Origin: Cafeteria roenbergensis
Lineage: Eukaryota; Sar; Bigyra; Bicosoecida; Cafeteriaceae
NCBI GenBank assembly: GCA_008330645.1
Contig: VLTN01000012.1
Span: 62,001 to 126,000 of the forward strand
Length of the DNA: 64,000 nucleotides
Reading direction: 5' to 3'
Shown here: piece by piece, positions 6,066 to 58,112 of the stretch
How positions within the stretch are numbered: position 1 is the stretch's first letter
Layout: every line of letters starts with the position of its first letter
Notes under the pieces: model-generated
What the model saw: only the letters and a program-made list of their open reading frames with translations
Told to the model about the DNA's origin: nothing
Database searches by the model: none
Made by a program: the position numbers and the translations under genes

Positions 6066-6099
<34 letters not shown>

Positions 6100-8302
6100 C
6101 TGCCGCTGCCGCTGCCGCTGCCACTGCAGGCGCAGCTGGCCGGGCTTGCTTGCTGGGCGAGCTTCCGGGCGCTGCCCGCCCCCGCGGCTGACCCGTGCCT
6201 GCCCTGGGGGGCGTCAGCTGACGGGGGCCTTCGTCGTCCCGATGCGGCGGCGGCCTGAGAGACGTGACGTCTCGCGGCGTGGTCTGGCCTGTCAAGTTCC
6301 CGCGCGGCGTGAATTCGCCATGCGACGTCGAACCGTCGGTGTGGCTCAAACAGGCGTGGGCAGTGACTCCCGCGCGGCGTTGCAACGGGGCCTGGTCACT
6401 CCGCGCTGGGGAGTCACTGCGCGCCTGCCATCGTTGAGTTGCTGGTGTGTGGGTGCCACGACGCAGCTGCCCTTCTGTGATGCCAGCATGACCGGCTGCT
6501 GATGTCCTCGGGATGCGATCCGTGTTGCCTGCGAGGGCTGTCTCGAGAGTGGTCGGTGCTCTGGCGCCTGCGGCGACAGTGCGGGGTCGCTGTTCCATCA
6601 GCGCCTGCCTGCTGGACAGCGTGCCTGCCATCGTAAGGGGCCGTCGCATCTCGTTCGGGAGAAACGCATGCGAAACCGCGTGGAGCCGTGGCGGGACAGA
6701 CAGAGATGACGACGGCGACAGCACACGGGAACCCGAGGCGTGTCGGTCCATCGGCGAATTGTTTGCCCGATCGCGTGCCTGGATTGTTGCGCGTCCAGCT
6801 GACCGGTGCGCATGAAGCGACCACTCTCCGCGAGAGGCCTTGCCGGCAGTCCAACCCGCCGAGTCCGGGCGCCTGCGGTGCTGGCGCTGCTGCGAATAGC
6901 GCCCCGATGGACGATTGACGAACCCAGCAGCGGCAGAGCCTGAATCAGCGCGTCGCTCGCTAGCGTTGCGATCGACCATCGGGGAGCTGGGGCCCAACCG
7001 ACCCTGCACAAACGCAGACGCCACGTCGCGCGCCGCGAGAGCACGGCTCTGTCCCCCAGCGGCCTTGCCGGCCTGCGATGGGCTGGTGACGGGGGGAAGA
7101 TGCTCTGTTGATAGTTGAGCGCCTTGCACGCTGCGGCTTTGCCGAGTGGCTGCAGAGCCGCGAGACACTTCGTCGCGCCGACGTGGCAGGGCGGCAGGCC
7201 CGCGGGTGCGCGAGAGCGGGCCCTCGCCGAGCGACTCCGCACTGTGAGCCCCGGGGTGGTCGCTCGCAAGCGTGGGCCGGGGCACTCGTGGTGTCGGTCG
7301 AACTTGCGCCGCCGAAAAGCCGTGAAACCGCTTGGGTGTTCTGGCTGGCTCCAGGTGGCCCCGGCTGCCTGACAGGACTTCCGGCGAAAAGCTGGTGATG
7401 CCCGGCTGACCGGCAGATGATGCCTCTGAGGACGCCTGGACGGATGCAGGCGAGCACGAGTCGGGGAGCGACGCGCCGCTGGCGCACGCCTCCGTGGCCG
7501 ATGCCGCCGTGACTGTGGCCGGCGCAGCAGCTGACGCTGTTGCAAGGGTTGAACGCGGCGCTGGCGCGGGCGCTGCTGGCAGGGGCATGGCGCCAACGGC
7601 CGTCAGCCGGCGCTCGCTTCCGGAGTGAACCACGACGCCCCGAGCGTGGCCGCCGGGCGCGGCAACATCAAACGCACATCGGTCGCCCATCAAGGGGACG
7701 TCAGCACCCCTGGCGCCGCCTGGGTGTCCGTTCGCCTTCTCTGGGCACTCCACGGGGGACACGGCAGCCGAGGCGGCGGCTGCGAAGGCTGCGGCGCCGC
7801 TGTCCGGAGCAGAGGCTGCGCTCGCTGACGGCGCCGCCGCCGCCGCCGGACTCAGTGGGTGGGTGTGGTTGCCACGCCTGCTCGGCTGGAATCCGCCGGC
7901 GTCGCCCATTGGGCGGCGACCAGACGCGCTGCCTCGGCTGTGCCTGCCGCCGGGCTCTGACGTCACAACGGCAGGCAGAGATGCAGCTCCCAGTCGTGAC
8001 GGGCTCGTGAGGGACGAGTGATGGGGCGCTGATGCCCGGAGTGATGTCGCTCCAGGGGTGAGGGGCCTCTCCGCAGCCGCCTGCCAGACGGAGGGCGGAG
8101 ACAGGTGAGCGGCAATGCGGGCGCGGTTCGCGGCCAGCGCCTCGCCCAGCTCCTCGGCGAGGCGCCTGGCGGCCTGCTCGCCCCCCGGAGGCGGCCGCAT
8201 GCGGCGGACGGGGATGTGCGCGCCGGTCCACAGTCCCATCCTGGTGCGCTCCAGCTCGTCGCGGTGGCGGGCCGCTTGCTGTGCGCGTCGCAACTCGTAC
8301 AT
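4943..8302 (-). CDS. Unrecognised disordered Ser/Ala/Arg-rich protein, 1119 residues
   Basis: One long open frame with an ATG at 8302. I do not recognise a family. The first 80 residues (MYELRRAQQAARHRDELERT, then an ArgArgLeuAlaGluGlu-type stretch) look helical and charged. The last 100 residues (LDDPVRQRKLDDFAATHARA near the C terminus) look ordered. The roughly 900 residues between are low-complexity, with a run of alternating Ala/Thr encoded by the hexamer tract at 6067-6126. The gene carries several copies of the dispersed GGCAGAGCC and GAAACCGC words described in the findings. Its length, codon use and freedom from stops support a real gene; a scaffold or cytoskeletal role would be a guess. 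Confidence 0.6.
6067..6126. repeat. Coding hexamer repeat GTTGCC/GCTGCC
   Basis: Tandem six-base units inside the 4943-8302 gene, encoding alternating Ala and Thr on the minus strand. It belongs to the same repeat class as the GTTGCA tracts elsewhere in the window. Confidence 0.85.
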
Positions 8303-8888
8303 TTGACCGGCGAGCCGGCTTCACCGGCGGCCAGGGTGCTGGCGGCGGGGGCGAGAGCGGAATCGGGCCGAGCCCACTGGAAGAGAGGGGACAGCCGCCG
8401 TGTTTCGGGCGAGGCAGCGCGTCCCCCCAAAGCGCTGGCCCGGCGGCAGGTGCGCGCAAGCTTGCGCTGCCTGACCGGCGAGTTGTGCTGGCTTGTTTGC
8501 GTGTTTGCTGGCTGGCTCTGCCGGGCGATCCCCAGCCGACGACGCGCGGCCGTTCGGGCACGTAGCTGCGGGCATGGCCACCCACGCAGCGGACAGGGCG
8601 AGCCCGGTGTGGCCAATGTGTGCGGAGGGTGGGCCGTGGCCACGGCCTTGGGCCGGCGCAATGCGCGCAGCAGCCAGCGCTAGTTGGGCTCAACTACGAA
8701 CAATATTCTAGTGGAGGAGTGGAACTCACTACCGAACGCAGAGGCTCTACAAGGCGGCTGCGCTGCACGGAGCCAGAGCTCAAGCTGAGTTCGGCCACGG
8801 CCACGGCGGCATTGGTGCCGTTCCCGACTTCCCCCCCACGTCCGCACGCAGCCGGTGCGTCTGGGGTCGCGCCCCTGAATCGCTCCCA
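8303..8888. other. Intergenic spacer
   Basis: About 590 bases between the 3' end of the histidine kinase gene and the start of the next minus-strand gene. No gene or RNA was recognised. Confidence 0.5.
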
Positions 8889-11427
8889 TCACCGGGGAAT
8901 CACGGAGTCGCTCTCCATTGCAGCCTGCACCGCGTCGACGCCCGTCGGTTTCGGGAGCACCCTCACCGCCCCTAGGGACAGCAGCCGTTTCTGCTCCACG
9001 CCACGGGCGTTTCCCGTGATGACCACCACGGGCAGAGCCCGCAGCCGCGCTGCTGCTGCTTCGTCGCCGGCGCCCTGCCACTCTTCAGCCATCCGCGTCC
9101 GCGCCATCAGGACCTCGTACCCGTTGAGGGTCGGCATCTCAACATCCAACGTCATCACGACCGGCCAGTGATCCGCCGGGGCCCCCCGCAGTGACTCCAG
9201 GTGTTGGACAGCGAACGATCCATCGGACAGACTTGTCACCGACAGCCTCCACCGGGTGAGAAGTGAAGTGAGCAAGTGACGATTGACGAACTCGTCGTCG
9301 ACCACCATCGCTGGCCGGCCCATCAATTCGCCGCCCAGCCTCGAACTTCCTGGCTTGGCAGCTCTGCCACGCCGGGGACGACGATCCCTCCTTCGATCCT
9401 GCCGTCGCTTGCGGTCTCGCTCCCGAACAGCAGCGGCAGCAGCAGCAGCAGAAGCAGCCCCGTCGTCAGGGTCGCGGCGGGCACCCGCTGGGGCTGCAAT
9501 CCTGCCCACTCGTCTGCCGGACGGGACACCGGCCCCCGCACCTGCTGCTGCAGTTGCAGTTGCAGTTGCAGTTGCAGATGTGATTTCTCCGTGGCGTTCG
9601 TCGCCCCGCTCCGAGGGCTGGTCACTGGCGCCGTGGTGACGACGCCGCTGGCTGCGGCGAGACTTCTCGTGGGGGGCCGTCACCGACGGGTCGCCACGAC
9701 CATCACCTCTGGGGGCCGGCGCAGCGCTGGCGGTTTCGCCGGCCCTCCGCGCGGGGGCCCCGTCGCGGCGGGTCGCTGGTGGGTTTTGCGTTGCTTCCGG
9801 GTCGCGATGGGCGACCGAGGACTTCGCTCCCGCCGCCGTCACGACGGCGAGGGGGAGCGGAGTCACTCGTCGCGAGGCGCTCTCCTCCTTGGCCTCCGCA
9901 TCTGAGCGACGCTGACCGGAATCGAAGCGTCCGGCACCAGGCCTGGCGGCGGTTTCGCCATCAAGACGGAAGCCATCAGGCCCCCAGGCCATGGTTGCAG
10001 CCGCGCTTGCCTTGATAGCGACCGACTCCAGATCGTGATGACCAACATCGCTCTCCGGGCCTGATGGGTACGTGATGGACCGACGACGGTTTGAGAACCG
10101 CTGCCGACGGACTCCGCTGCTGTCACTGCTGCTGTCACTGTGGTCGGCACCGGTGACCGCCCCCTGAGTCCGATCAGCGCCGGTCAGCCCACGGGCACCC
10201 ATCCCCGCCGCCGCTGCGGCCGAAACCGCCGGGTGACCTGACACTCCGACGCGCCCCCCAGACCTACCCTGCGGTTTCGCTGAGTGTTGTCCCGCTGATG
10301 CGCCGAAACTGGGGTTGGTCGAGCCGGTCGCGAAACCGTTTGAGCCGAGTTGATCGGCTGTAACCGAATGCTCTCGACGCGCGGCCCCAGCGGTTTCGCG
10401 CTGGGCCGGCCTTCGAGCTGTCCAGTCGCTCGCAGTTGCCGTGTCGCTTCGGTTGCTGCTGACTTCCGGAGTACAAACCATCAACTCCAGGTCAGCGCCC
10501 AATCGCTTGGCCGTCACAGCGACTCCGTCCGTAGTGGTGTCGAACGACGGCGCCGACGTCGCGTCCCACTCGTCAGCTGAGTCGGCAGTGACTCTTGCCA
10601 CTCTTCCAGCAGAGCCATGCCGGATCAGTGGCTTGGACTCAGGTTCGGAGTCCGTGCCGCTGAGAGGCGACAGACGCTGAGGCCCCGACGCCGCCACGTG
10701 GCGGCCAGCACCAGCGGTCGGCCTCGAGAGCGGATGCCTGCTCCTGGGGTCTGACCCCACGGACAGCCAGCCATCCGACGATGTCGGTCCACCCATCGAG
10801 CCCAGGCCGCGACTGTCACTTCCGCCTCCACCGCCGGAACCACCGCCGGAACCACTGCCAGAACCGCTGCCGGAACCACCGCCGGAACCACCGCCACGCC
10901 CGTCAGCTCCGGCCCGTGACGCCAGGCCCGGCGCAACGGTCGCCCCTGCCGCCGCTTCGGCCGCCGACCGCCCCGCCCCCAGCGCGGGAGGGGAGAGCTC
11001 TGCCTTCGGCGCCGTCGATGGCGGGTGCGACGGTGAGATGGGCGAGTGAGTCGGCGATGATGGCATCGCGACGGTGGCGAAACCGCGCGAAGGCGCCTCT
11101 GCGGCAGACGGCGACTGCACCGACATTGCATGAAGTCCGCGCGAAACCGCTGTCCCAGGCGAGCCGGTGATGCTTCCGCGACGGAGCCCATCCGCGCTGC
11201 CGCGGGTGTCGTCGGTCGACGTTCCCGTGACCGACTCAGCGGCAGCGGCAGTGGCAGCGGCAGCGGCAGCAGCAGCGGCTGCGACAGCGACAGCTGCGGC
11301 CCCAGCCGCTGCGGCCGCAGCGGCGCCAGTCGAAGCATGGGTAGCTCCGCCGAAACCGCCACCCCTGCCACCGAGCAGCGGCCCCAGGCTCCCGTCTGCA
11401 TGGCTTGTGGGCCCCGGCGTGCCCGCA

Positions 11428-11473
<46 letters not shown>

Positions 11474-14400
11474 AGTTTGCGCTCGAGCTGCGGCAGCACC
11501 GCTGTCGCACGCCGACGCGGACTCTGCCGGCAGAGCCACTTCGCACTTCCAAAGCGTCGCCTCGAAGCTCGACGATGGCCGGAGCGTGGCGAAACCCGAT
11601 CCCATCACTTGCAGCGGTTGCAGTTGCAGTTGCATTCGCACCTGTCGTGGCGGCTGAGCCTCCCCACGCCGGGCCCCCAGCTGCCGGCTCTGACGAAACC
11701 GCCCGCACCTTTCGGGCCAGGCCAGTGTGCCAGCCGGCAGAGCCGTCCACCGAGGCGGCGGGGTTCGATGCCGACGTTGAGTCACCGGTCTGGCTGGGCA
11801 GTGACTCCTCGTCGGACGCGAAACCGCGGCTGCCATGCCGCCGCATCGCGTGCCCCGGCGACTGTGCCTGCAGCGACTGGCTGACTGCCAGCTGATGGAG
11901 GCTGCGCGATGATCCTGCCTTGATTGGCAAGTGACGGGGCCCTCGGGGGGTGGCGTCGCTGGAACGGGGCCCCAGGGCCCCTCGCTCGAAGGCGAGCGGA
12001 GACATCCCCGCCTCTGACACAGGCACAATCAGCCGCCCATCACCCATCACCGCGGCAGAGCCGCTCGTCTGAGCGCTGTCCTTGGTCGATCGCCTGCGTC
12101 TGACGCCAGTCTTGCGAACCCAGACGGGGATTCGAACGAAGAAAACCGTCCCGTGACCGGCTCTGCTTGCGATTCCCACTTCGCCGTGAAGGCTCTGCAC
12201 GACCAACTTCGCAATGGCGAGTCCCATGCCGCCTGCAGCCTGGGACAAGGCTCCGTCACCCGTGCGGAGTTTGCGGAACGGCTCGAACAGCGCGTCAGCT
12301 GACAGCATCTCGCTGCTGATTCCCGAGCCAGTGTCGCTCACTTCCACGCGGAGCACTGCCCTCCGAATACGACGGTGAAACCGCTGGGACGGGCTATGTG
12401 ACTCCGCCGTCCAGGCTGCGGTCTCGCCAGCGCTGGACGGGACACCGCCAGGACGGCCCGAGGAGGGCCGTTTCGAGGTTGCGAAACCGCTCGCTCCGGA
12501 CCTACCGTGACTCCCATGGCTCCTTCCGGATCCTTCCACAGCTCTGCCAGTTGCCCTTCCCGCGCTCCGCGACCGGGCCGAGCCAGCAGCCGCCAGCGCG
12601 GGCGCAGCCGTGTGATCGGTCCGGCTGCCTCCGACGACCGGCCTCCCTCGGCGCCCCGACCGGTCGCTTGCGTCGTCCAGCCACGTGGCGCTGGAGTCCT
12701 GCCGAGCGGTGAAACCGCGGGGCCGAGAGATGCCTGCGTGAGTGGGCGACACCGTGCTCCGGGCCATAGGCGACGCGAAACCGTTGGAGGGGCGGGCATG
12801 CGGGATCGTGAGCGTTGGGCGCTGCGACCCGAACGGCAGTGACTGACTGAAGCCTGGAAGGTGACCGGCTGCTGATGTCCCCGTGACAGGCGCGCGACCC
12901 GTGCGCGCGCTGGCGGCTGCCACGACGCGGTGGCCCTGACTGCCGCCCCGTCCGCCGCCACCGCCCCCACCAGCGCTGCCGACGCTTCCTGACCCAGCAC
13001 ACGCATCAGCACCAGCGCCAGTGCCAGAGCCAGCGCCAGCGCCAGCGCCAGCGCCAGCGCCAGTAACACCAGCACCAGCAGGCGTGTTGTCCCCGCCCGC
13101 GGACAGCTTCCGCGCCATCTGCCGCTGCGTCGCTGCCTCCCGCGCCGACGCGGGCGCCGGTGCCGTGCCGCGGGCTGGCCCCGCGGTTTCGCGATCGTCG
13201 GGCACGGCAGCGTGGGCCCGCGACTGGTGGCGCACTGTGGGGCCCCCGGGCCCCACGGTGATGGTCGTCGGGCTGCAGCGGCGCCGTGGCGACAAGGATG
13301 TGCCCCCTGAGGCGGCCGGCGGCCCAGCCTCTCGCGTTGCGGGTCTGTGGTGTTGTTTCGGCGACCTGACCTGGAACGACGCGCCCGTAAGCGGCTGCGG
13401 CCGATCCGCCGCCACGACCTTGGACGATGACGTCATCCGACGGTGGGACGTCTGCTGACGTAGGCTGCCTCCGGTCGGACGAGCGACCCCAAAGTGGCTG
13501 ATGCCGCGTGCCGTGGAGAGTCCCTCGGCCAATGGAACGTCCGAATGAACGGACGACTCCGCCACGACGGCCTCGCGACTGGGCACTGATGGCCTTGCCG
13601 ACGGCACTGCTGGAGCCGCCCCTGGCGAGCGGCTCTGCCCGCCTGGCTCTGCAATGATGGTCCCCTCACGAGTGACCCCCACGCGGGACACCCCGAAACC
13701 GCAGCACGGCCCCAAGAGCCGCGACGCCGGCGCGCAGCAGGCATCCGAGGAGCAGGCCTTGCCGCAAGCATGGCCGCAGTGCGTCTCGTCGGCGGAACGC
13801 TGAGCCAGCAGGAAGTCCAGTTCGGGCGGCGAAACCGCTGGGGCAGCCATCGATTTGATGGAGCTGCTTGCAAAATCGAGCGACGCTACAACAGTCACGT
13901 CGCCCCCCGCGGTGGAATGTTTGGCCGCGTTGGACACAGCGCTCAGCGCAACGGACAAGACCCGCTCCACGTCGGTAAAGACTTCGTATCGCTCAAGGTC
14001 CAGAGACACCGCGCGAAGTGCCCTCGGCAGCGGAGGCAGTGGCGAAACCGCTGCTGGGAAGACTGACGACGGAGGGGCGTTGTTGTGGCTGTCGATGCGG
14101 CCGGAAGCCACGCCAGTGAAGCGGTTCTGCGGAAGGGCCTGATGGGATGGTGACAGGGTCCGCGACCCGTTCGAGGCGTACACCCGGTGGTGGGGCGATG
14201 CCGACGCCGATGCTGACGGCGACGGCGACGGTCCCAGCGACGAGCGGCCCGCTGCGGAGCGGCTGGCGCGGTGAAGGGTGGTTGACATGGGGTCAGACCC
14301 CAGTGCAGGCAGCTCCAGCGGCACGAGTTCAACCGGGGTCTGGGGGGCCCGGGCGCTGAGACTCAACGGACTTGTGATGCGCGCGCTGCCAGCTTGGGAC

Positions 14401-17400
14401 CGGGACCGGTGGTGACCGGCTCTTGAAGCAGCAGCGACTCCGGGGTCATCGTCGGTGACATCCTTCCGGATCCTTCCAGCCGTGATGCCCTTGAGCTCTG
14501 CCGCTACTGCGCCCTGCGCATCGCTGCGCGAAGCATTGGATGCCTTGACACCGTCGCGCGAGCTCGCAGTTGCAGTTGAAGTTGCGGCCGAGTGGCCGGC
14601 GCGGGGACGCCCCTCAGCCGCCGGCGACGCCAGCACACCCGTACAAAGCGTCTGGGGTCCGGCCTGGCTCTGACGGTCGGCTGATACGGCTCCGCCACCG
14701 ACACCTCTTCCAACGACGGACGAGGGGGACTGCAACGCTGACGCGGGGGAGACGAGCGTAACGGACACGTGGTGGCCACTCTGGCCGCAGCTGCTCGTCG
14801 ACTGGTTGAACCAGGGGTCGATCGCGCCTGTCGCGCTGGCGGCGCCTCGTTTGGCCGCTAGATGCACCGAGAGACTCGACCCAGACATGCTTGAAACCGG
14901 CGGGCCCCCCAGGGGCCTCGGTGGGTGCCGGACATGCAGCTGTCGGGCTCGAATTGACCCGGCCGAGCTGGAGTGCGGCGAATCTATTTGGCCGTCGCGC
15001 CTCCGGTGCACCGGTGAGTCCCAGCCGGCAGTGGTGCCGGCGTCAGTGCGGAACGAGTCGGAATTGCCCCCACCAGCACCAGCGACGCTGCCGCTGACGG
15101 TGCCAGCGGCGCCCCCGTCGGCACCGTCGCGCGGTCCAATGTGATCCCACGGTGCGGCGTTGGCTGGCACCATCGTGACGGGCGACACTCCCGCAGCCCC
15201 CTTTGAAGGATGTGACACGACCGCGAACCCCGGACCGAAGTCAGTGCCCGCCCCTCCTGGCTGACTCGTCTCGGACGGACTGATGTCGCTCGGCTCAAAA
15301 TACTGCCGAACAACGCCATGGGCCGGCGACGTCCCGACAAGACCACCGTCATTGCCGAGCGCCTGCCCTTCAAGAGTGGCATGCAGCGAAACCTTTCCTG
15401 TTTCCATCACCCCCGCCTGCCCAGCCGCCGCCGCAGACCCGGCCGCATATCCGTTGGACCACACGCCCCCCTTCGCCATGCCCTCTCCCGGCCAGGGCTT
15501 GACGCTGGAGACACGATCCCGGCCAACTCCCGAAACTGTGGTTGCGGTTGCGGTTGCAGTTGCAGATTGAGCTTCATATGCGCCTGTTCGCCGCACATCC
15601 CTCGCTGAGAGGCTGTGCATGGCCACCAGGCGGTTGGCCGGCGACGGCGAATCGTCAGGCCGAGCCGTCTGCTGGACTGTGCCGAGCGACGAACCTGCGG
15701 TTTCGCCGGCCGAGCTGACTGCCCGCGCGCCGGCCGCCCACACTGCCGCGTCGCCGGCTGCTGCAGCCGTGGCAGCGGCTGTGGCAGCGGCTGTGGTGGC
15801 GGCTGTGGTTCCCGAGGCGCCGCCCGCCACCGGTGATGCCGGCGCAGCTGCCCGCTTGCCCGTCACTTGCATCCACTGTTCCTCGGAAATTTCCCGCCAT
15901 CCGACCCGGATGGTGAGGCCCCGGGACTCCAGCTCCGCCTCCGCCCCGTCCGCCACCGCCTCCAGCAGGTCTCCGTCAAGGCACGACCACCGGCCGTTCA
16001 GGCGCGAGTCGTCTTCGTCGTCCTCGCCCTCGTCCTCATTCGCCCCGTCGTCTCCGCCGCTGGCCCCAGCAGCGTGTGACTGCCCGCCGCCGCCGCGCCC
16101 ACGCCGCCCCCCCCCGCCGCGCCCGGACCCCTCCTCCTTCTCCTCGTCCTCATCATCCTCGTCGATGCGCAGGTTCCAATGTGCGGAGGTGGCCATGGCA
16201 GAGCTCCAGGCAGCCTGCTCCCAGCGCAGCAGGTCGTCCAGCAGCCGCTGCGTGGCAAGCACACCGGCGCTCAGCATCTCCGTCAGCTGATCGCTGGAGA
16301 GATCCGGCTCGCCGGGTGCGGGCGCGAGGCCGAGGGGGGGCGGGGGCACGTCCGAGCCTTGCGCCCAGGCGGCCGGACCGCCTGGACCGACAGCGGCAGA
16401 GCCGGACGCGGCAGAGCCAGGGGCAGGAGGCAGCGTCACGGACGCGCGAGGTCCGGACACAGTTGCAGTTGCAGTTGCAGTCATGGTTGACGTGGTCAGC
16501 GACGGCGCGGAGTCGCCGCTCTGGCCGCCGCTGCCCGACACCCTCCCTTGGACAGCGCTGCCTCGCTCGCCGCTGCCCGTGGCCTGGCCTGCGCCGGGGC
16601 CCTGCGCCGGCCTCAAGACCAGGCCCTGATGTGCTGATGACTGCTTGGAGACCGACTGGCTGGCGTCCCTGTCGACGTCCAGGACGGAGCTGGAGGTGCT
16701 CAGCGAGTAGTCACGCGCCGCCGACGCCGCCGCTCTGCCGCCGATCCTGCCCGGGGCTGCGGGGCTCGACCTGCCGTTCACTGCCACGAGGTTGCCGGCT
16801 GACGGACCGCTGCCGCCGAACGGCTGGCTGAGCACGGAGGCCATGCGCGGTTTCGCGGCCGCAGAGCTGGGCCCCATGAGCTGGGATGTCGGCTGCGTTG
16901 CGCCAGGGCCGTCGGCGCCTGGTCCTCCTTCGGCGCCGCGCCCTGCCGCAGGGAGCGACGCTGCCTTGAGCAACGCGTCGAACTCGGCGTCCAGCTCCGC
17001 TTCCGAGCCGGGGTCCGCGCCAGCGTGGCCGTGGAGGGCCTCCACGGACCCCCAGGGGCCGCTGGACGCCAGCGTGGTTCCGCCGACGTCCTCCTCCTCG
17101 TCCTGCTCGGCGCCCACGTTCCAGGGGTCGCGGGGCCGGCCCGGGCCGGATCGGACGGGGCTTCCAGCAGCGGAGCCCCCCGGGCTGACTGCGCTGGCGG
17201 TGGTTCTTCCCGGAGAGCCGCGAAGCCTGTCGCCGAGGCTGCCGGGCTCGGGCCGCAGGTCCCGCTCGAGCATGGACAGCGCAAAGTCCGCCACGTGGAG
17301 AGGCCCGCGCGCCTCGTGGCTGACGTAAGCGATGGCGCGGCGCATTGTGGTCTCGGCGCGGTCGGCGAGCGCCTTTCTGCGGCGCCCCAGGTGCGCGTGG

Positions 17401-19849: not shown

Positions 19850-19927
19850 CGAGCTGCGGCGGTCGGGGGCTCTGGAAGTACATAATCTTGACCTTACAGC
19901 CAAATACCGTTTTGTAAGGCTTAAATA

Positions 19928-20431: not shown

Positions 20432-20450
20432 AAGGTGCGCTGGCAGAAAA

Positions 20451-20610
20451 GCTTACAACGCCTGTCTGTAACCCTTACAGTGGCCGAAAAATTGTTAACT
20501 TTTGCTAACAAAAATTTGGACTCTGCCAGGCTTACAGAGGTCTCTGTAAGGGTTACAGATGCTCTGTAAGGCTTACAACCTTACCGTAAGGCTCTGTAAC
20601 CCTTACAGAG
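20451..20610. promoter_or_regulatory. Cluster of CTGTAANNNTTACAG palindromes upstream of ORC2
   Basis: Three 15-base copies: 20466-20480 (spacer CCC), 20544-20558 (GGG) and 20594-20608 (CCC). The last extends to a 19-base perfect-arm palindrome at 20592-20610. A near copy lies at 20564-20578, half sites at 20451-20458 and 20531-20537, and another inverted repeat, TTGTTA...TAACAA, at 20492-20511. It lies 180-340 bases before the ORC2 ATG and just upstream of the small minus-strand ORF. The symmetry suggests binding by a dimeric transcription factor, or subterminal repeats of a mobile element. Confidence 0.6.
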
Positions 20611-20792
20611 CATATGTACTTCCAAGCCCCCGAGAAACAGCCCAGCTCGTTGGCCAATCGCAAGCCGCTCTGCAAGCCTCGGTGGGCGACGGCCGCCGTG
20701 GCGCAACTGCGCGCGACAACAGCACACGAGCGCTCGGCCCGCGGCCAGAGGGGGAATTCCGTCCCCGTCTGTGGCGTACCAGTCGTGCGCCG

Positions 20793-24651: not shown

Positions 24652-24683
<32 letters not shown>

Positions 24684-50313: not shown

Positions 50314-53300
50314 TCACGCGTCCCTCCGCTGGGGTCGATCGGCGAAACGAATCGCCGCGTCCGTCCGCTTGACCGCGTCCTCGTAAGGCCACCTCATCGC
50401 TCCGTGCAGCTGCGACGACAGCACCGCCATTCGCGCCAGCGACCGCGCCTCTGCCGGAGTCGCGCCAGGAACGGCAGAGCCGGATCCGTCCGGGTACGAC
50501 AGAGCAGAGATCGCCACTTCAGCGGCTGGCCGGGCGCCGGCGGCCGACGCGCCGCCAGCCCTGCCGGGAGCGCCGCGCTGGGATTCGTGAAGTGACGGCG
50601 GCCGACGCGGCTCTGCCGAACCCTGCCACCCGCGACCACCCAGCGCAGGCGAAACCGCTGCGGGGCGGTGCTGGCTCGCCCAGCTGGAAGCGCCACCGCC
50701 TCTGCCTCTGCTGCCGCTGATGCTGCTGCTCGGAGCAGACGGGGCGCGCCTGCGGGGTGTCGACGGCGCCGGCGAGGCTGGCAGAGCCGAGTGCTGTCTG
50801 GCAGAGTCACGGGATGATCGGACGGGCCCGGGACTTCCAAACGCAGCCATGGCCGGCGAAACCGCCGCCATGCGAGGGCGCGAAACCGCGCTGGAAGGCG
50901 TGGGGGAGAAATCAGAAGAGCCGCGGCCCCCAGCGGTTGAGCGACGCGGCGTCGCTTGGCTGCCAACGTCCAAGGGCGACGGCACTCCGAACCGCTCGGC
51001 AGGCAGACCGGCGAGCTGCAGCTGGCGCCATCGCGCTTGGTCGATCGCAGCGCTGGCGTCAGCTGCTGCAGCGGCCGAAACCGCCCTAGCAATGGCCCCC
51101 ATCACTGGGCGACGGCTTGCCGGGCGACCGGTTGACTGGGCAGAGCTCTGCGGGGCAGGGCTTCTCATGAAGTGACTCGTGCTCGGGGACGTGAAACCGC
51201 CCGATCCGAAGTCCTCCTCGGAGGCCAGCGCTCGGACCTGGTGAAGTGGATTGGCAGAGCCAAGTTCAGAATCCTTCCATTCAGAGCGGCTCTGCAGCGG
51301 TGAAAACGCGGGCGTGCCGGACAGCTCCGTGGCTCTGCCAGACGACGCGGCGCCGGCCCTGCCTACGCGCGCGTTGGACAGCGCCTGCCTGGCAAGCTCG
51401 CGAGCGGCCGTGGCGGCGGGGCCGCCGTGAATGATGCGGCGCGATCGGCGGTCGGCGGCGCGGCGCTGCCGCTCCAAGGGAGTGCGGGTGGCCTTGAGCA
51501 CCACCGCCATGATGTCCCCGTGATGGGCCGCTGACTCGGAAGTGATGTCGGAGTCGTGCGATGACGTGTCGCTCCCCGCGTCCCAAGAGTCGCCGGCGTC
51601 GGCGCTGCGAGCGCCGAGAGCATGGTACTGGCCGCCCACCCCCTCGCCGCTCCCCCCCGCACCGCCGCCGCCAGCGCTGCTGTGGCCGCCGCCCGTTGCA
51701 CCCTCCCCGTCGGCTCTGCCAGTGTCGAGGCCGCGCCGCCGCCGCTGCTGCGGCGTGACGAACGCCGCCTCCCGGCCGGGAGACCCCACCCTGCCGATCC
51801 TTCCACCGCTGGCTCTGCCATCGCCCCAGCCAGACCGGCCAAGCTCCTTGGCCGCAGGCGAAACCGCTGCAGGGCTGGACGTCGGGACGCCGAGTGACCG
51901 CGCCAGCGACAGCGTCTGCTCGTCGAGATACATCGACCCCGCCACCGGCTCCTGGAAGGATTCGGGCACTCCGGCGATCGACGAACTGAGGCGACCGTTC
52001 TTCCTGGCAGAGCCGCCCGTGAGAGACGGTTGCCCCCCATCGGCGTCGCGCTCCCGGCGGCGTCGCTCACTCGCGATGGTGTCGCTCACTAGCTGCAGCT
52101 CTGCCGGCGTCAGAGCCCGAAGGGAGCGACGGGAGCCCTGCGCCTGATGGGGTGTTGATGGGGCGGCAGCTGGCTTGGGCGCGTCGCTCTGCGCGTCGCT
52201 CTGCGCGTCGCTCTGTGCGTCGCTCTGCGCGTCGCTCTGAGCGTCCCCTAGCTCTGCCGATGGTGGTACCGGGGGGCTGACTGGCGCTGATCGCGACGGT
52301 TTCACCGGCTGAGTCTCCGGGCGACTGGCCTGTGATTGGGTTGGCGAGAGCTGCTCCGACGTGACGCGCGAAACCGCCGCCCAAGCGTTGGGCGAAGTCG
52401 TCTGCTGCTTTGGATCCGGCTCTGCCGGCTGACGTCCATCACCGGAAGGAGCGATGCTCTGGCCGGTCGGGCTGTCGATCGACCAACGGCCCCTAGAGGC
52501 GGACGGCGAGGGTTGAGGGGGGACCTGTGCGGGGCCCTGCGCGAGGTCACTTGCGGTGGCGGGCTCGTCGCTGTCGTTGGCATCGCCACCCGCAACCGCC
52601 GGCGCCGCTTCGGCAGAGGCGCCCGCTTCGGGCGGGCTGGGCACGTCAACGGCGGGCGAAGGACCGACATCGCAATGTCGGTCGTTGGCGGGCTCCGTGG
52701 CGAAGCCCGGCTCAAGGTGGTCTGAAGACTCGCTGGCGATGTCGTCACGACAGGGAGCTGCCTGCGACACGATGGACGCGAAACCGTCGCCCAACCCAAA
52801 CCTGTGTCGAGCCTGCGCCGCGATATCGGGCTCTGCCACTTCCGCATGCAGCTCTGCCGACGTCGCCGCCGCGGCCAGTACCTCCAGCGAAAGCTTTGGC
52901 ACTGCGCTTGATGCTGCCGGGGTTGGGGCGGCGGCGGGGTGGTGGCCGGCGGGGCGGCTGGCGGGGTCGCCTGAAAACTCGTGCCTGCCCGCGTCAGCGT
53001 CGTCACTTCCAGCGGTTTCGTTGCCCGTGACGTTGTCCTCCAAAGGCCTCGGAGATGTTGGTCCGCCAGGCGAGCGACTCCGTGAGCGACTCCGCGGCGA
53101 GAGCGGCAGGGTCACTGTGGGCCGCTGCGGCGGCGGGGTGACGACGACCCCGTCAATGGCTCTGCCGCTGTCGCTGACGTCTGGGGAGCGCAGCCTGGCA
53201 GGAGCGACGGCTCTGCCGCGGGATGGGCGGTCGGCAGAGCCGCCTGACGCGGCCAGCGCAACCAGGCTGTCCATCTCACTCGCAGTGACTGTCCCTGATG

Positions 53301-55478
53301 CAGTTGCAGTTGCAGTTGCAGTTGTGATGCGTCTGACGGCGGCAGTTGCTGCCGCTGCCCTGGCGCACGCCGTTCGCGCTGCGAGTGCCGCCTGGACGGC
53401 GACGGCTCTGCCGCGGGCTCTGCCGAGTACTCGAGCCACCAGCCGCGAAACCGCTGCGGAAAGTGTCTGAAGTCGGAGGCGTTCGTCCCGAGCCTTGACA
53501 CGCCCCAGATGGCCCCGAGATACGCGCGTGATGGCTGCAGCTGCCGCGTGCTCTGCCGACCGCCGTTGCGCCGCCAGGGCCCCAGCGCGAGTGGCGGCCT
53601 CAGCCAACGCACGCCGCTCCGCTGCGCGAAACCGCTGGCGCTCTGCCCATTGGCTCCCTGCCCTCGCGATGGCTGTGGCAGCGTCAGCCTCCCGCGCCTG
53701 CCGCTCAGCGGGTGACTCGGTGCTGACTGGCTCCTGACCGGCCCCATCATCAGCTGGAGTTTTCCCGGCAGAGCCGTCGGAGTCAGACGCGTATCCGGCA
53801 GCCACCTCATCCGCCGGTCGCACGCTGATCAGCTCGCCATCAGCTGACAGCTCCACGACATGCGTGGGAGTCACCAGCATCATCGCGCCATCGTCGCGAA
53901 ACAGCGCCGTGCAGCGGCCCGACCCGGCGACGGACGGGGCTGGAAGGGTTGCGGAACCCCCGTCGCTGTCGACGTCGCTCGCTGAATCCTTCCAGTCGGC
54001 AGAGCCGGGGGCAGCACGGGGTCTCGCCGAGGGGGCAGACTCGGCTCTGCCGGGGTGTCTCTTCGCCGACGTCGACGTCGATGTCGGCGATGGCTTGGCC
54101 GAGGTGTGATCCGGCCCGAGCGACGACGGCTCCGAGGCGGCGGCAGCTCCGGTGGCTTCCGCGCTGGCGGCGCGGTCTCGGGGTGGCTGCTGCTTCGACA
54201 CTGGCCCGCTGGTCGCGTCGACGTCGTGACTGGCATCTGACTCGGGCATGTCGGCGCCACGACGGTCCCGAGACACGGGCTGTGACACGCTTTGGATGGT
54301 CCGCTGAACTCGCTGTGACGGGAAGGGTGACCGGATCGTGATGCCGTCAACGTCGTCGTCGTCGTCGTCGTCAAACGAATCAGTTGACCTGTCGCTGGAG
54401 TCCGAGTCTTCCTCGGCTCTGGCGTCCGACCCTTGCAGCGTCGCTCCTCGCGATCGACCAGCCGACTTCGCTCTGGCTCTGCTCCTGGCTTCCCGGAACG
54501 CCGTCCACGCCGGGATATCAAAACACCGCAGCGGAACGAAACCTGCCCGGTACGACGGGGTGTCAGCTGGGTCGTCATCGGCAAGGCCGGAAGACGACGC
54601 GCCTGGCTCCGACGGCGACCCTGCGCCAGAGCGATGGATGCCTCTGCCGCTGCTGCCGGCTGGCCCGCCGCCGCCGCTGCTGCTGCTGCTGCCGCTGCTG
54701 CTGTTGCTGCTGCTGCCGCCGCCGGCGGCCTCTGACCCGTCCGCGGCACCAGCGCTCGCGGCATGACTCGTGCCGGTTGCGCCGTTGACTGGGGCGCTGG
54801 CGGGGGCGCTGGCGGGGTCGCGCTTTGCGAGGACGCTGGCCCAGGCGCCGCTGTCGGGCACTCCTGCGATGAGCGCCGGACGGGAGGGGAGGGGACCAGA
54901 GATTGAGGGAAGACGGGGGCCTGATGTGGCGGTGACTTTGCGCCCAGAACAGTGGCGGCGGTAGGGGGGGTGGGGGAAGGCAGGGGGCCGGCCTCCGCAA
55001 TCGCTGGCAGGTTCGAGCGGCGCGGCAGCAGCAGCGGCCGCGGCTCTTGTAGCAGCTGCCACGGGAATCAACGGGCGGCGCGATTGCGCGCCACGCCTTG
55101 CGCGGGAAAGGCATGGGCGCCGGCAGCGCAGCGGTGCTGGGGCAGCAGCGACACCCCCCCCACCGCCGGCTCGATGCCGACAAAAACACGACAGGCGTGC
55201 CCGGAGCCGCGCGCAGGCGGCCCAGCGGCAGCCCAGACAGACCCACCACCCGGGTCGACAGCATGACGGGCCGCTCGCACACGCATCGGGTTCGCTTCTG
55301 GCCACACGGAGGGCTTGCTGCGCGCGGGAGGGGGGCGCGCACGCCGGCTGCGGGCGTGGATTCCAGTCGTCTCACCGACTCTGGTGACCGCGTCGCCCGG
55401 CTCAACGCTGATCTGGCCCCGCAGGGTGGCCCGGAAGGCGGACGTGACGGGGAACCATTGCTCCTCCACCCCCGCCAT
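50314..55478 (-). CDS. SH3- and IQ-motif protein, ~1550 residues
   Basis: Two exons: 55478-55376 (ATG, 34 codons + 1) and 54863-50314; the 512-base intron has donor GTGAGA and acceptor TCATCGCAG after a long pyrimidine tract. Splicing joins FRATLRGQISVEPGDAVTRV to GVPDSGAWASVLAKRD, which together look like an SH3 domain (ALYDF-like strand, GD, then GWW-like GAW). The closing strand, RAGFVPLRCFDI, comes only after about 85 Ser/Gly/Ala residues, so the domain carries a low-complexity insertion. Further on is an IQ-like calmodulin-binding helix (AAITRVSRGHLGRVKARD) with Ala/Arg-rich continuation, five tandem Gln-Ser-Asp-Ala units (52181-52240), Ser/Pro-rich disorder and a short ordered C terminus. 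It looks like a scaffold at membrane or cytoskeleton, by inference. It is rich in the dispersed DNA words. Confidence 0.75.
52181..52240. repeat. 12-base CGTCGCTCTGCG repeat, five copies
   Basis: Encodes tandem Asp-Ala-Gln-Ser units in the SH3/IQ protein. Confidence 0.9.
53301..53323. repeat. GTTGCA hexamer tract in the SH3/IQ gene
   Basis: Same tandem hexamer as in the histidine kinase and 58326-62486 genes, again encoding Thr-Ala dipeptides on the minus strand. Confidence 0.9.
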
Positions 55479-55891
55479 CCTTGCAGGTGCTCCCGGCGCT
55501 GCCCCACGGCAAGCGCATCGGCGCGTCGCCAAGTTGCCGCATGTCCGCTGATCGCGGCTCTGCCGGCCGCGGCCTCGGCAATGCGCCCTGCCGCCCGTGC
55601 TGGGGCCGGTCGGGGTGGTTGACGCGGACCCGAGCCGCCCCATTCGCGTGCACGGCATATGCATCCTCCACGGGCAGACTGTTTGGGCGCGCGCGGGCAG
55701 TCGGCTTGGCCTCCGGGAGCGGCGTTGAGCGACCGCGCGTCGAGCTTTCGCTGGCTGAGCTGAATTATTTGCTCAACGCCGCAATATATGAGCAAAACCA
55801 GTGCAAGCGGCCTTTTCGGCGAGCCCGCGCACCCAAGGAGGGGCAGGCCGGCCTGTTCAGTCAAGCCAGGCCCTTTGCTCAATTTTTGCGC
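55479..55891. promoter_or_regulatory. Divergent promoter of the SH3/IQ gene and the ketoacyl synthase
   Basis: 413 bases between two outward-facing ATGs. An AT-rich patch carries the inverted repeat TTTGCTCA (55768-55775) / TGAGCAAA (55789-55796) around a TATA-like CAATATATG. A third TTTGCTCA is at 55874-55881, ten bases before the ketoacyl synthase ATG. The repeated octamer is a candidate regulator site. Confidence 0.6.
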
Positions 55892-58112
55892 ATGTCCGCT
55901 GGCTTCGGGAGGGCGCTGCCGGCAGCCCGGCGCGTGGTCGTCACAGGCGTGGGGAGCGTGACGCCGTGGGGGCTCGGCAGCCTCTCGCCGTGGAAGCGCG
56001 CACGAACGGCGCCCGGCAGCAGCATTACCGTGAGAATCGTATGCACGCGAGTCGTGCCCATGGGCTCTTGCGCTGGCGCAGCTGCTGGCGCTAGCGCTGG
56101 TTCGGCCGGCGCTGGTGCTGCCACTGCTGGCTTTTGCGACGCTGTTGCCGGTTCCGGTTCCGGTTCCGGTTCCGGTGCTGCTGCTGCAGGGGCAGGGAGT
56201 GATACGCCTTTTCCCTGCCCGGCCTCGCCCGCCCCGTCGTCAAGCGCCGCGCGTGACAACAACGGCCCTGACGCTGCCGCCACCGCGCCGCCGTCGCAGT
56301 CTCTCGACGACGACTCAGCGTTCGACGCCGTTTCGGCCAGAGTGGCGGCGCGCGTGCCAACTCCCGACAACCCTCGCGCTATGGACAGCTCTGCAGTCCA
56401 CTTCGAGGACTTGGCTCTGCCGGAGGGGTCGTCCGCGGCCTCCCGAGGACTCTTTGACGAGTCTGAGTGGGTGTCGCGTGCCGACGTCCGCGCTATGGGA
56501 GGGATTCACTTCATCACGTGGGGAGTGGCCTCGGCAGAGCTGGCTCTTCGCAGCGCCGGACTGATGGACCTGCGATCGGCGTCTGACTCCGATCAGCGCA
56601 CCGTCGCCCAACGGATCAACGACAAGGACGCTGAGCCCGGCGCGTCTCTCATGTTGGCAGAGCAGGATGGCGGTTACGCGCCGTGGCGCTTCGGCGTGTC
56701 GCTCGGCACAGGCATCGGGTGCCTCGAAGAGATCGGCAGAGCCTACTCCATGGTAGAGCAGGGGCGGCAGAGCCGAGTATCGCCCTTCTTCGTGCCAAGG
56801 ATCCTTCCGAATATGGCGGCCGGTCACGTCGGCATCAGGTTTGGCCTCAGGGGCCCGGCGCTCGCGCCCACGACGGCATGTGCCGCAGGCAGCCACGCGA
56901 TTGGCGAGGCCTTTCGGTGAGAGAGAGAGAGAGTGATGGCGTTTTGATGGTGTTGTGATGGCATGGTGATGTCACTGTGATGAAGCGGCGACTGTGGCCG
57001 GGTTCAGGTCTGGGTTGCAGTGACGGCTTCGGGCAGGCCCCTGCCTCCGGGAAGCCGTGTGCCTCGTGGGGGCGGCCACAGCGGGAGGGGTGAGGGGTCA
57101 AGGGGGAGGGGGCGGAGAGGGGTCACCAGGGAGGCGGGGGGGGAAGTGGGGGGGGGAGTGGGAGGGGGAGGGGGGGGGGATCGCACGGCGGAGCGCACGA
57201 TGGGGCGCTGTCGCGGCCACAGCCCCGATAGCCCGCCGCCAATCACGGCCGTGTCACCCCCGCCGCAGTCTCATCCAGGCCGGCGACGCGGACGCCATGG
57301 TGGCAGGCGCCACCGAGTCAGCGGTCCATCAGCTGTCAGTCACCGCCTTTGGCAGAGCCAGGGCTCTGTCGAGGCAGACTGACCCGCAGCGCGCGTCGCG
57401 TCCGTTCGACAGGGACCGTGATGGCTTCGTGATGGGGGAAGGATCGGTGATGTTGGTCCTTGAGGAGATGGAGTCCGCTGTGCGGCGCGGGGCCCCAATC
57501 CTGGCAGAGCTCGCCGGTTTCGGCATGTCCTGTGACGCCAGCCACATCACAGCGCCGCCTGAGACTGGCTCGGGCGCCTGGCTGGCGATGCGTTCGTCAA
57601 TCGTCGACGCGGGGCTCTGCCCGGACGACGTCGACGCTGTCATCGCGCACGCAACATCGACCCCGCTCGGCGACAGCGCCGAAACCGCGGCAATATCGGC
57701 TCTGCTCGCCGGCAGAGCCCCCGAAGGCACTGGCGGGTGCCCCGCCCTTCCCAGACACGGCACCGATGAAACCGCCGGCAGAGCTGATCGATCCGGCAGA
57801 GCCGCTCCAGCGCTCATCGCCTCCGCCAAGGGAGCCGTTGGACACATGCTCGGAGCTGCAGGAGCCGCCAACGCAGCAACTGCAATCGACAGCATCGTGG
57901 CCCAGGCAGAGCCGCGAAACCGCAACGCGGACGACCCCAGTGTGGAGCTTGACCAGGACGTTGCCGCGCTGAGCGGCGGCAGACCTGCCGGTGACATGGG
58001 CGTGATTGTCTCCAACGCGTTTGGCTTCGGCGGCACGAACGCCGCGCTGGTCTTCGCGCGGCCCGGGCTGCTGGACGAACGCCGCCCGCCGGCGGGGGGC
58101 ACGGTGCAGTGA
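55892..58112 (+). CDS. OXSM: Mitochondrial-type 3-oxoacyl-[ACP] synthase II (KAS)
   Basis: Condensing enzyme that elongates acyl-ACP with malonyl-ACP in type II fatty-acid synthesis; the closest pattern is mitochondrial OXSM. Exons 55892-56916 and 57269-58112; the intron 56917-57268 has donor GTGAGAG, acceptor CGCCGCAG, phase 2, and rejoins GEAF-R-LIQAGDAD exactly as the family requires. N terminus RRVVVTGVGSVTPWG, then VSPFFVPRILPNMAAGHVG and nucleophile Cys in TTACAAGSHAIG. Exon 2 has FDRDRDGFVMGEG, the first His in AHATSTPLGD, Lys and second His in SAKGAVGHMLGAAGA, and NAFGFGGTNA. All catalytic residues are present. It is 622 residues, about 150-200 more than usual, through a Gly/Ala/Ser insertion after the first strand (with a GGTTCC repeat at 56147-56175) and another near 57710-57810. 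No clear targeting peptide is seen in the first 12 residues. Confidence 0.92.

Follow-up and report, generated by a model that had tools for sequence, protein, structure and literature searches.

Word-rich and word-poor genes of the window

The 64-kb stretch of DNA that we analyzed (the window) carries open reading frames (ORFs) that differ sharply in their content of a set of short DNA words. We refer to an ORF as word-rich, or hot, when it holds at least 5 words per kb; among 97 ORFs sampled, 17 carry 5-15 words/kb and 80 carry 3.6 or fewer. The word-rich ORFs of the window are one without Pfam hit (4946-8320, minus strand; 5.0 words/kb), a hybrid histidine kinase with HATPase_c and Response_reg domains (8892-18848, minus; 5.4 words/kb), ORC2 (20550-24812, plus; 8.9 words/kb, mainly GGCAGAGC), of which a single genome copy was found, a ubiquitin-specific protease with UCH and DUSP domains (32244-38426, minus; 8.1 words/kb), an ORF that the initial annotation named SH3/IQ (50317-55371, minus; 11.5 words/kb), the first (55448-56917, plus; 6.8 words/kb) and second part (57024-58109, plus; 14.7 words/kb) of the same beta-ketoacyl synthase (KAS), a further ORF without Pfam hit (58329-62609, minus; 8.2 words/kb), and the 3' part of CDT1 (63459-64000, minus), which extends to position 129448 of the window's contig, C12. 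Word-poor controls are a diflavin reductase (77-2149, plus), with two words, and an ORF labeled coiled-coil in that annotation (25202-31711, minus), with one word vs. 3.1 expected. A Pfam search returned no match for the EF-hand and SH3/IQ labels. Long ORFs contain 50-83 words each; the main words stand about 12-fold above a synonymous-codon null in 15 hot ORFs and at the null in 8 word-poor ORFs.

A lexicon of DNA words

The initial annotation had singled out one decamer, GCGAAACCGC, said to recur in coding DNA in both orientations and every reading frame, and hence to act at the level of DNA. The window holds 33 exact copies, whereas 100 dinucleotide shuffles yield 0.40 on average and at most 3, and an order-3 Markov model predicts 0.79. 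Two lie in the first ORF (5909-5918 and 6670-6679, plus strand) and 13 in the kinase (9730-9739, 9949-9958, 10271-10280, 10390-10399, 13183-13192, 15697-15706 and 16847-16856 on the minus strand; 11077-11086, 11141-11150, 11818-11827, 12481-12490, 13829-13838 and 14042-14051 on the plus strand). ORC2 has one (23051-23060, minus), as does the second KAS part (57914-57923, plus); the protease has 33755-33764, 36900-36909, 37338-37347 and 37716-37725 (plus) and 37060-37069 (minus). The SH3/IQ ORF follows with 50649-50658, 50856-50865, 50880-50889, 51858-51867, 52368-52377, 53445-53454 and 53626-53635 (all plus), and the ORF at 58329-62609 with 59162-59171 (plus), 60941-60950 and 61750-61759 (minus). 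Thus, 32 of the 33 copies reside in word-rich ORFs; the sole copy in a word-poor ORF is in the coiled-coil ORF (26806-26815, plus), and none lies in the diflavin, tandem-repeat ("ankyrin") or EF-hand region of the window.

For the decamer, these data uphold the gene list of the initial annotation as well as its six exact examples (6670, 13829, 14042 and 52368 on the plus strand; 13183 and 23051 on the minus strand). All six readings occur in 17 word-rich ORFs, with 5/14/6 sense and 20/12/10 antisense copies across the three frames. Nor do codon- or dipeptide-preserving shuffles match the counts: 15 word-rich ORFs hold 61 copies, vs. 1.9 after synonymous shuffling (n = 200, largest 6) and 8.8 after dipeptide-class shuffling (n = 200, largest 18). 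Shuffles, ORF densities, Pfam segments, the occupancy of compatible positions and frames agree that the recurrence is a gene-specific property of the DNA, not of the protein, and is spread through coding sequence. What did not stand is the view of the decamer as the whole phenomenon, as it is one member of a larger set in which other words are equally strong or stronger.

We followed eight word types: GCGAAACCGC (the type of word A), YGGCAGAGCYR (the type of word B), GATCCTTCC, GTCGCTCA and GTCTCTCA, TCAGCTGA, CGATCGACC, and an RTCA array with an 11-bp period. Across the host genome (36.3 Mb), GCGAAACCGC occurs 2,499 times and the same word read backwards, our control, 249 times; the corresponding figures are 8,983 vs. 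500 for YGGCAGAGCYR, 925 vs. 44 for GATCCTTCC and 182 vs. 0 for the four-unit form of the RTCA array. Four word types are in excess on both strands across the genome. Genome-wide, GCGAAACCGC has a density of 69 per Mb and YGGCAGAGCYR one of 247 per Mb; the window exceeds the genome mean for the decamer about 7.5-fold, and 74 kb of hot ORFs hold 108 copies of word A and 255 of word B. Within the window, GAAACCGC was counted 59 times vs. 2.6, and GGCAGAGC recurs about 1-2 times per kb inside the tandem repeat. The words have a rigid core and graded flanks; GCGAAACCGC, GGCAGAGC and most others are non-palindromic, and TCAGCTGA is a palindrome. Word B shows 119 sense and 137 antisense copies in ORFs. 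Densities in 1-kb bins mostly correlate positively (rho 0.45 for A and B; range over pairs -0.01 to 0.45), and the words of 12 ORFs of the window's contig recur in five ORFs of three other contigs (C5, C20 and C30). GGCAGAGCC has 86 places in all; in the ORC2 ORF, for example, it stands back to back with GGCTCTGCC (23652-23669).

The RTCA element is phased. Same-strand spacings of 11, 22 and 33 bp occur 112, 53 and 30 times vs. a median of 10, and no other distance between 4 and 70 bp rises above the median plus four times its root. Such spacing is expected if the contacts sit on one face of the helix. A four-unit RTCA-N7 array with this period lies inside the ORC2 ORF (22743-22779, plus; C12:84743-84779), and arrays are also seen in the apparent KAS intron. 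The pairs lean toward the sense strand, and do so even in the only frame that admits the antisense form (17 vs. 24-39 per sense frame). Opposite-strand RTCA pairs have preferred distances as well.

Placement and near-matches of the words

Conserved protein domains are not spared. Thirteen Pfam-matched segments contain 41 words in 4,428 bp, and the remaining 32,013 bp of these ORFs contain 244, an equal density, and nine words fall within 57273-57707 of the KAS ORF, which aligns without gaps to the mitochondrial KAS 9n50_A. Consequently, protein tolerance does not set the density. Words are sparser outside ORFs than inside: the 21 inter-ORF gaps of the word-rich stretch (9.2 kb) hold no copy of word A and six of word B. 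Outside long ORFs (20.9 kb), RTCA pairs (15 vs. 1.4) and GGCAGAGC (22 vs. 4.0) are above expectation. In eight hot ORFs the density is 1.0 words/kb upstream of the upstream stop, 0.5 words/kb in the first 250 bp past it, and 9-10 words/kb beyond 1.25 kb inside.

Word-rich genes are clustered in certain stretches of the genome, with word-poor genes interspersed among them. Of the three-unit RTCA arrays, 100 of 475 were listed, 13 of them on nine contigs together (C1-C4 and C6-C10) and 20 on C12:67-153k; 100 of the 182 four-unit arrays were listed as well, and these are found across C30:29-371k, C38:38-271k and C51:26-141k. Among the matches listed, arrays are dense also on C5:714-846k and C20:458-491k and keep to a portion of the chromosomes, as is characteristic of macrodomain and pairing-center words. 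Words A and B occur elsewhere in the genome too, at lower density.

One-mismatch forms, the expected decay products, are few for the commonest words. Word A has 106 vs. 113 expected, next to 109 perfect copies; its mismatches accumulate at position 0 (35 vs. 6.8) and are scarce throughout the core (71 vs. 106 at positions 1-7). A modest excess exists for word B (308 vs. 265 expected, sd 12.7; 256 perfect), located at positions 0-2 (84 vs. 33, 40 vs. 25 and 27 vs. 15) and not seen at the 3' end, and for word C, ATCCTTCC (61 vs. 39.5 expected, sd 5.9), where it is distributed across inner positions. In hot ORFs the two commonest words fill up to 48% of the positions that the protein leaves open to them, and word-compatible peptides are 1.3-1.9 times as frequent in hot proteins as in shuffled ones.

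Possible readers or writers of the words

Bacteria are known to carry densely iterated short DNA words, with roles in DNA uptake or chromosome organization or, in the case of HIP1, which lies largely within coding DNA, an unsolved purpose. Here a bicosoecid flagellate combines several words, at very unequal levels from gene to gene and across conserved enzymes. The data suggest an agent that reads the words, or writes them, at the level of DNA. Tentatively, and judging from sequence, we favor the interpretation that they are recognition sites of sequence-specific DNA-binding proteins, which would mark a chromosomal compartment at its gene bodies. A set of such proteins would each recognize a double-stranded word of the lexicon, and selection would have shaped the coding sequence of a subset of genes, through synonymous and partly amino-acid choice, to about 5-15 sites/kb. 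The bound proteins would most likely confer a distinct nucleoprotein or chromatin state on these gene bodies, a compartment mark that may serve chromosome organization, pairing, or the control of replication or recombination, much as MatP and SlmA sites mark macrodomains in bacteria. We would then be dealing, to put it with due reserve, with a eukaryotic multi-word DNA code over exons that fills the gene bodies of the compartment and bends proteins to hold more words. If true, genes would possess a second layer of information that is neither protein-encoding nor promoter-like. The data mean that a DNA-acting agent dictates codon and partly amino-acid choice in hot genes, by which codon-usage and selection analyses would be distorted.

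Several findings sit uneasily with this interpretation. The one-mismatch excess of words B and C, the RTCA sense bias and the opposite-strand RTCA distances speak against it, and occupancy of up to 48% amounts to a saturation that resembles a writing process more than ordinary binding-site selection. Interspersed word-poor genes and the lack of an evident function common to the hot genes count against it as well, as does the inter-ORF scarcity, because a domain mark should be accommodated most easily by short intergenic DNA.

Known systems resemble this picture in part. The bacterial macrodomain sites matS/MatP and SlmA are likewise scattered sequence-specific words in part of a chromosome, and the SlmA sites of Escherichia coli are mainly coding, where SlmA apparently does not regulate genes; they number, however, 23 and 50 in E. 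coli (PMC3116907), whereas here there are thousands, of several types, and certain gene bodies hold 5-15 of them per kb. The Caenorhabditis elegans pairing centers offer a eukaryotic case in which regional short motifs recruit sequence-specific proteins, the ZIM/HIM-8 zinc fingers, yet each is one cis-acting region near one chromosome end, and each protein attends to one or two chromosomes (PMC3820632); the word-rich stretches vary in size and their words are mostly within coding sequence.

The main rival to DNA-binding proteins is a HIP1-like writing process, by which repair, gene conversion or mutation would perfect near-matches in certain genes, preserve them in that form and leave functionless words; we consider it rather doubtful. 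The initial annotation had named HIP1 of cyanobacteria and bacterial uptake words as the nearest analogies. Like HIP, the words are short, GC-rich and very dense: 1000-2000 HIP copies per Mb (Elhai, 2015; PMC4390886) are comparable to word A in hot ORFs, though the genome-wide densities of GCGAAACCGC and YGGCAGAGCYR lie below that range. HIP1 deviations concentrate at the first and last positions of the word (Elhai, 2015; PMC4390886); those of word A are concentrated at its end, with core near-matches depleted, whereas word B has its excess at positions 0-2 and word C at inner positions. The filling of compatible positions and the enrichment of compatible peptides fit as well. The analogy fails on palindromy, on even genome spread, as the words vary gene by gene in this eukaryote, and on methyltransferases of two families. 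HIP words are palindromic, and a search of the host genome for the DNA-methyltransferase families PF01555 and PF00145 at E 0.001 returned no match (controls matched in 11/14 and 10/14, respectively). As most words are non-palindromic and these two DNA-methyltransferase families were not found, membership in the HIP1 class is not supported. Moreover, several unrelated words would have to be written simultaneously, and a tolerance-limited drive predicts the opposite of equal density in conserved and other coding DNA with less between ORFs. With four sequenced strains, the HIP1 question of selection vs. biased writing is directly testable here. The comparison with the uptake sequences of Haemophilus and Neisseria, also non-palindromic 9-10-mers without orientation bias and partly in ORFs, fits poorly: their mismatched forms are reported to be overrepresented and they to prefer non-coding or unconstrained coding DNA (PMC1939737), whereas mismatched forms are here not in excess (A) or modestly so (B, C), and domain and inter-ORF densities reveal no such preference.

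We regard it as unlikely that the words are exonic transcription-factor sites controlling their host genes. Motif-like words do co-occur gene by gene, among them half-site arrays and the inverted repeat RTCA-N2-TGAY, but their number in long ORFs and their sparsity upstream of the upstream stop of hot ORFs and in the 250 bp past it argue against intragenic cis-regulation. Somewhat more improbable still are recombination words, whose bound factors would promote or suppress meiotic double-strand breaks, the suppressing ones spreading by biased conversion. In fission yeast, five unrelated 7-10-bp motifs activate recombination from within the coding region of ade6 via chromatin remodeling (PMC6827382), and several words, one of them RTCA/TGAY-based, share common coding bodies here; those motifs were tested singly, however, dense iteration over whole genes is not described in the part of that report drawn on here, break-promoting words should erode, and a sexual cycle is not known for the species (PMC6972860).

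A role at the RNA level, with mRNAs of hot genes pairing with themselves or each other or forming mini-hairpins, appears very improbable. Both orientations coexist within the same ORFs, RTCA pairs are biased to the sense strand, and hairpin drawings are possible for the two main words, GCG-AAAC-CGC and GGC-AGA-GCC; yet paired double changes in the putative stems are no more frequent than single changes predict, for which reason we rejected a DNA or RNA hairpin element, RTCA arrays lack self-complementarity, and words occur outside long ORFs, with RTCA arrays in the apparent KAS intron. A dispersed transposable element was likewise rejected, as word flanks are unrelated and the nine KAS words interrupt no alignment. 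An ordinary cause, be it biased codons or dipeptides, repeats, contaminating DNA or an assembly artefact, can practically be set aside: the window is rich in simple repeats and GC-rich low-complexity proteins, but the words exceed both shuffles, their flanks are unrelated, nine of them lie in the gap-free KAS stretch, and ORC2 was found once, on a contig continuous with word-poor DNA.

Excess of the words in coding sequence

The window holds 33 copies of the decamer GCGAAACCGC, where shuffles lead one to expect 0.40 and an order-3 Markov model 0.79; the examples given in the initial annotation are all correctly placed. Genome-wide (36,303,456 bases, 167 contigs) the decamer has 2,499 places, against 249 for a reversed-word control. 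The lexicon also includes word A (CGAAACCG), word B (GGCAGAGC), word C (ATCCTTCC) and pairs or longer arrays of an RTCA half-site at an 11-bp period (RTCA-N7-RTCA). For GGCAGAGCC the window has 86 copies against an expected 4.9, and genome-wide there are 8,983 of YGGCAGAGCYR (control, 500) and 925 of GATCCTTCC (control, 44); additional words, partly related to one another, are GTCGCTCA, GTCTCTCA, TCAGCTGA and CGATCGACC. CGACGTC and CCACTTC are raised both in 12 word-rich ORFs of the window's contig, VLTN01000012.1 (C12, of which the window covers 62001-126000; 83 versus 34 and 33 versus 8), and in five on contigs C5, C20 and C30 (40 versus 16 and 7 versus 3), and the lexicon is therefore probably larger than the words listed here. 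B also stands back to back as GCTCTGCCGGCAGAGC more frequently than at other offsets, with eight counts (four places) where the mean per offset is 0.48 (for example, window 23652-23669), and short hexamer arrays, (TGCAGT)n or (TTGCAG)n, within word-rich ORFs (window 9549-9577, 53299-53324 and 58994-59023) add to the dispersed word AACTGCAA.

The analysis covered about 0.35 Mb of sequence from one genome, with ORFs standing in for annotated exons. Gene-level differences were assessed in 97 ORFs of 350 codons or more, none overlapping another, from ten stretches. Word density runs from 5.0 to 14.7 per kb in seventeen of them and from 0 to 3.6 in the remaining 80, the threshold of 5 per kb for word-rich, or hot, ORFs having been chosen once this distribution was known. 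Word density is uncorrelated with GC3 (rho 0.08, p 0.45) and rises weakly with the length of the ORF (rho 0.30, p 0.003). The proposed division of the window into genes rich and poor in the decamer was right, as 32 of its 33 window copies lie within word-rich ORFs.

Expected values vary with the null chosen. Under 200 protein-preserving synonymous shuffles of 15 hot ORFs (71.5 kb), A is found 101 times versus 7.7 and B 253 times versus 21.8 (dipeptide-class shuffle means, 26.6 and 57.9), ratios that are partly circular as these ORFs were hand-picked on the density of A and B. Words C, D, E, F and G and the RTCA pairs played no part in that choice; C is found 35 times versus 2.2 and 4.5, RTCA pairs 85 times versus 7.3 and 18.3 under the two respective nulls, and the lesser words are 5- to 8-fold over the synonymous shuffles. 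The decamer excess survives both codon- and dipeptide-preserving shuffles (61 versus 1.9 and versus 8.8), and every observed word count exceeds the largest shuffle. Eleven of the 15 ORFs lie on C12, three are the respective longest ORFs of stretches L029, L030 and L038, and one, from L031, falls under the later threshold with 3.4 words per kb; three of the 17 hot ORFs are absent from this test (4946-8320; C5:740001, 1-1290; and the one on C30). Eight word-poor ORFs (36.3 kb), hand-picked from the 24 under 5 per kb in C12:62-206k, are at the null (A 1 versus 1.2, B 8 versus 5.4, RTCA pairs 2 versus 0.9).

Words of 12 hot C12 ORFs recur with similar excess in five hot ORFs of C5, C20 and C30 (CGAAACCG 24 versus 1.3, GCTCTGCC 59 versus 5.1). 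Only the remaining words are independent evidence in these stretches, since each had been chosen through one kind of word: those of C5 through GATCCTTCC, C20 and C30 through RTCA arrays, and C1:1186k through the decamer. Even so chosen, they proved rich in further words; C20:473-480k holds 30 B and 7 C in 7 kb, and C30:207-211k holds 51 words in 4 kb, with 8 A and 13 B. ORFs outside hot stretches (155 kb) are intermediate in their excess over a Markov model (A 25 versus 4.1, B 85 versus 26.8, RTCA pairs 12 versus 4.7), and the trait, bimodal near the window, is consequently graded genome-wide. The MCM, CCT and USP families were considered as a possible functional class of hot genes; 1 and 5 words were counted in two stretches with MCM, 2 and 0 in two with CCT.

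Outside long ORFs the words are thinned and still present. In the word-rich stretch, 21 gaps between ORFs of at least 200 codons (9.2 kb) hold no A and six B, that is 0.65 per kb, whereas hot ORFs have 1.8-9.2 A and B per kb. The hot stretches include 20.9 kb not covered by ORFs of 350 codons or more, some of it possibly short exons; here a single A is present where 0.4 is expected, and B, C and RTCA pairs number 22 (4.0 expected), 3 (0.2) and 15 (1.4), respectively. For GGCAGAGC, the contrast between the inside and the outside of long ORFs is one of copies per kb, with a Markov excess outside (5.5-fold) little less than that in hot ORFs (7.2-fold). In eight hot ORFs, density is 0.5 per kb in the first 250 bp past the upstream stop and 9-10 per kb beyond 1.25 kb.

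Proposed protein binding and its rivals

The best explanation, which we put forward tentatively, is that the gene bodies of a genomic compartment hold selected protein-binding words: they would be putative sites of sequence-specific DNA-binding proteins, and selection for binding would keep up site density along these genes. This reading draws on the rigid cores with graded flanks, the half-site arrays on one helix face, the inverted repeat of the RTCA half-site, the near lack of orientation preference in the main words and the co-occurrence of several words. RTCA-N7-RTCA surfaced in a spaced-pair search with 63 occurrences in the first hot-ORF set, while other spacings from 0 to 19 gave 2-14 each, except for spacing 18, equal to two periods, with 29. 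Same-strand RTCA distances peak at 11, 22 and 33 bp and nowhere else between 4 and 70; opposite-strand offsets (C12:62-166k and the C5 and C20 stretches) are raised at 6, the inverted repeat, at -4, a CRE-like form, and at 26, -39 and 42, which may reflect codon phase. Genome-wide, three-unit arrays number 475 versus 21, and the 35-place four-unit pattern 182 versus 0. An 11-bp minisatellite, GTGATGGCGTT (4.5 copies, window 56933-56982), lies in an apparent intron of the ketoacyl synthase (KAS) gene, and its period and its half-site, RTCA on the minus strand, match those of the exon arrays.

The decamer had been said to occur in both orientations and every reading frame, and all six readings are indeed occupied (sense 5/14/6, antisense 20/12/10). 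For B the two strands are about equal (119 sense, 137 antisense), whereas the frames are not (53/18/48 and 31/101/5). RTCA pairs number 94 in sense (31/24/39) and 17 in antisense, all 17 in the sole frame without an in-frame TGA, a limit that follows from stop-free ORFs having been taken and has no evidential value; per permitted frame, an approximately twofold sense excess is left over.

The strongest rival, though in our estimate an unlikely one, is a process that writes the words into DNA in the manner of HIP1, the highly iterated palindrome of cyanobacteria. It is favored by the depletion of A near-matches and by the level of occupancy. One-mismatch forms of A number 106 versus 113 expected (35 versus 6.8 at position 0, 71 versus 106 at the other positions) beside 109 perfect words; those of B 308 versus 265 (sd 12.7; 84 versus 32.6, 40 versus 24.8 and 27 versus 15.1 at positions 0-2) beside 256; and those of C 61 versus 39.5 beside 38. 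As neutral decay should give one-mismatch forms about as numerous as perfect words, decay is slight or absent in A and B, which are thus maintained, re-made or young; C shows some decay. Among places in the 17 hot ORFs that synonymous choice would permit to hold a word, 109 of 227 are occupied by CGAAACCG, 256 of 561 by GGCAGAGC, 38 of 104 by ATCCTTCC and 40 of 252 by GTCGCTCA; after shuffling amino-acid order, compatible places number 122, 346, 61 and 201, respectively. In the 72 ORFs with fewer than 2 words per kb, the number of compatible places matches that after shuffling (ratio 0.96-1.03), and the four words occupy 10%, 9%, 1% and 4% of them. Hence, the proteins of hot ORFs have also been altered by word pressure.

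A HIP1-like process is made less likely by the coding bias of the words and by their equal density in conserved domains. Moreover, a genome search for two families of DNA methyltransferases, PF01555 and PF00145, gave no match, which leaves HIP-like methylation unsupported. The modest excess of B one-mismatch forms and the void RTCA frame argument led us to place slightly less weight on the binding reading and more on this rival.

Thirteen Pfam-matched segments (4,428 bp) carry 41 words, or 9.3 per kb, and the remainder of the same ORFs (32,013 bp) carries 244, or 7.6 per kb. This equality suggests that site density is maintained rather than that words settle where they are tolerated, as the protein-binding explanation would have it, and on this ground relaxed protein constraint was rejected. 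Insertion of words as units was rejected for KAS, where window 57273-57707 contains nine words, including two RTCA pairs that overlap, and its residues align gap-free to the mitochondrial KAS 9n50_A; against 1w0i_A there is one gap of two residues. The RecA-like domain of ORC2 is split by an in-frame, word-bearing and disordered-looking insert of about 150 residues (window 23313-23780), and a like interruption is present in the UCH domain of the window's USP. Nucleosome-like phasing was rejected on pair distances that are about flat (spacing CV 1.07), and a hairpin reading (GCG-AAAC-CGC, GGC-AGA-GCC) was dropped, stem covariation being absent.

Genomic distribution

Along C12, word density goes up at about 65 kb and down at about 165 kb. 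Among the first 100 of the 475 three-unit RTCA matches listed, 20 lie in C12:67-153k and 13 on C1-C4 and C6-C10, with groups at C5:714-846k and C20:458-491k; the first 100 of the 182 four-unit matches listed are spread across C30:29-371k, C38:38-271k and C51:26-141k. This distribution fits a chromosomal compartment with interspersed word-poor genes. A single centromere-like domain per chromosome, at which the three-unit arrays hinted, is unsupported, given that the four-unit arrays of C30 and C38 extend across hundreds of kb, and a duplicate or foreign gene set was rejected on the single ORC2 found in the genome. Past C30:72k lie 375 of the 475 three-unit arrays, while C1-C26 account for half the genome's bases; word-rich DNA is thus preferentially on shorter contigs.

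Bacterial macrodomain words or HIP1 probably offer a working analogy. Full-text searches of the open-licence part of the PMC literature on the words themselves, Cafeteria genomes, HIP1, pairing centres, motif overrepresentation, recombination motifs and macrodomains gave, among the papers listed, none that describes these words or a eukaryotic equivalent within coding DNA. Papers matching the words did so mostly through GGCAGAGCC or its complement, and the decamer is absent from the 20 of 532 listed. We rate the phenomenon, being multi-word, gene-specific, exon-embedded and eukaryotic, as categorically new.

The window also holds a tandem array at 40725-46635, made of 15 repeats of a 395-bp unit that are 95% identical, with a period not divisible by 3. 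Read on the minus strand, each unit appears to give an ankyrin-like stretch, DGHTPCHLAAAAGHKEVLQLLLD, with a GTGAG after it; with one candidate intron of 182 bp it would leave a 213-bp exon, and the array looks like a series of whole exon-intron units.
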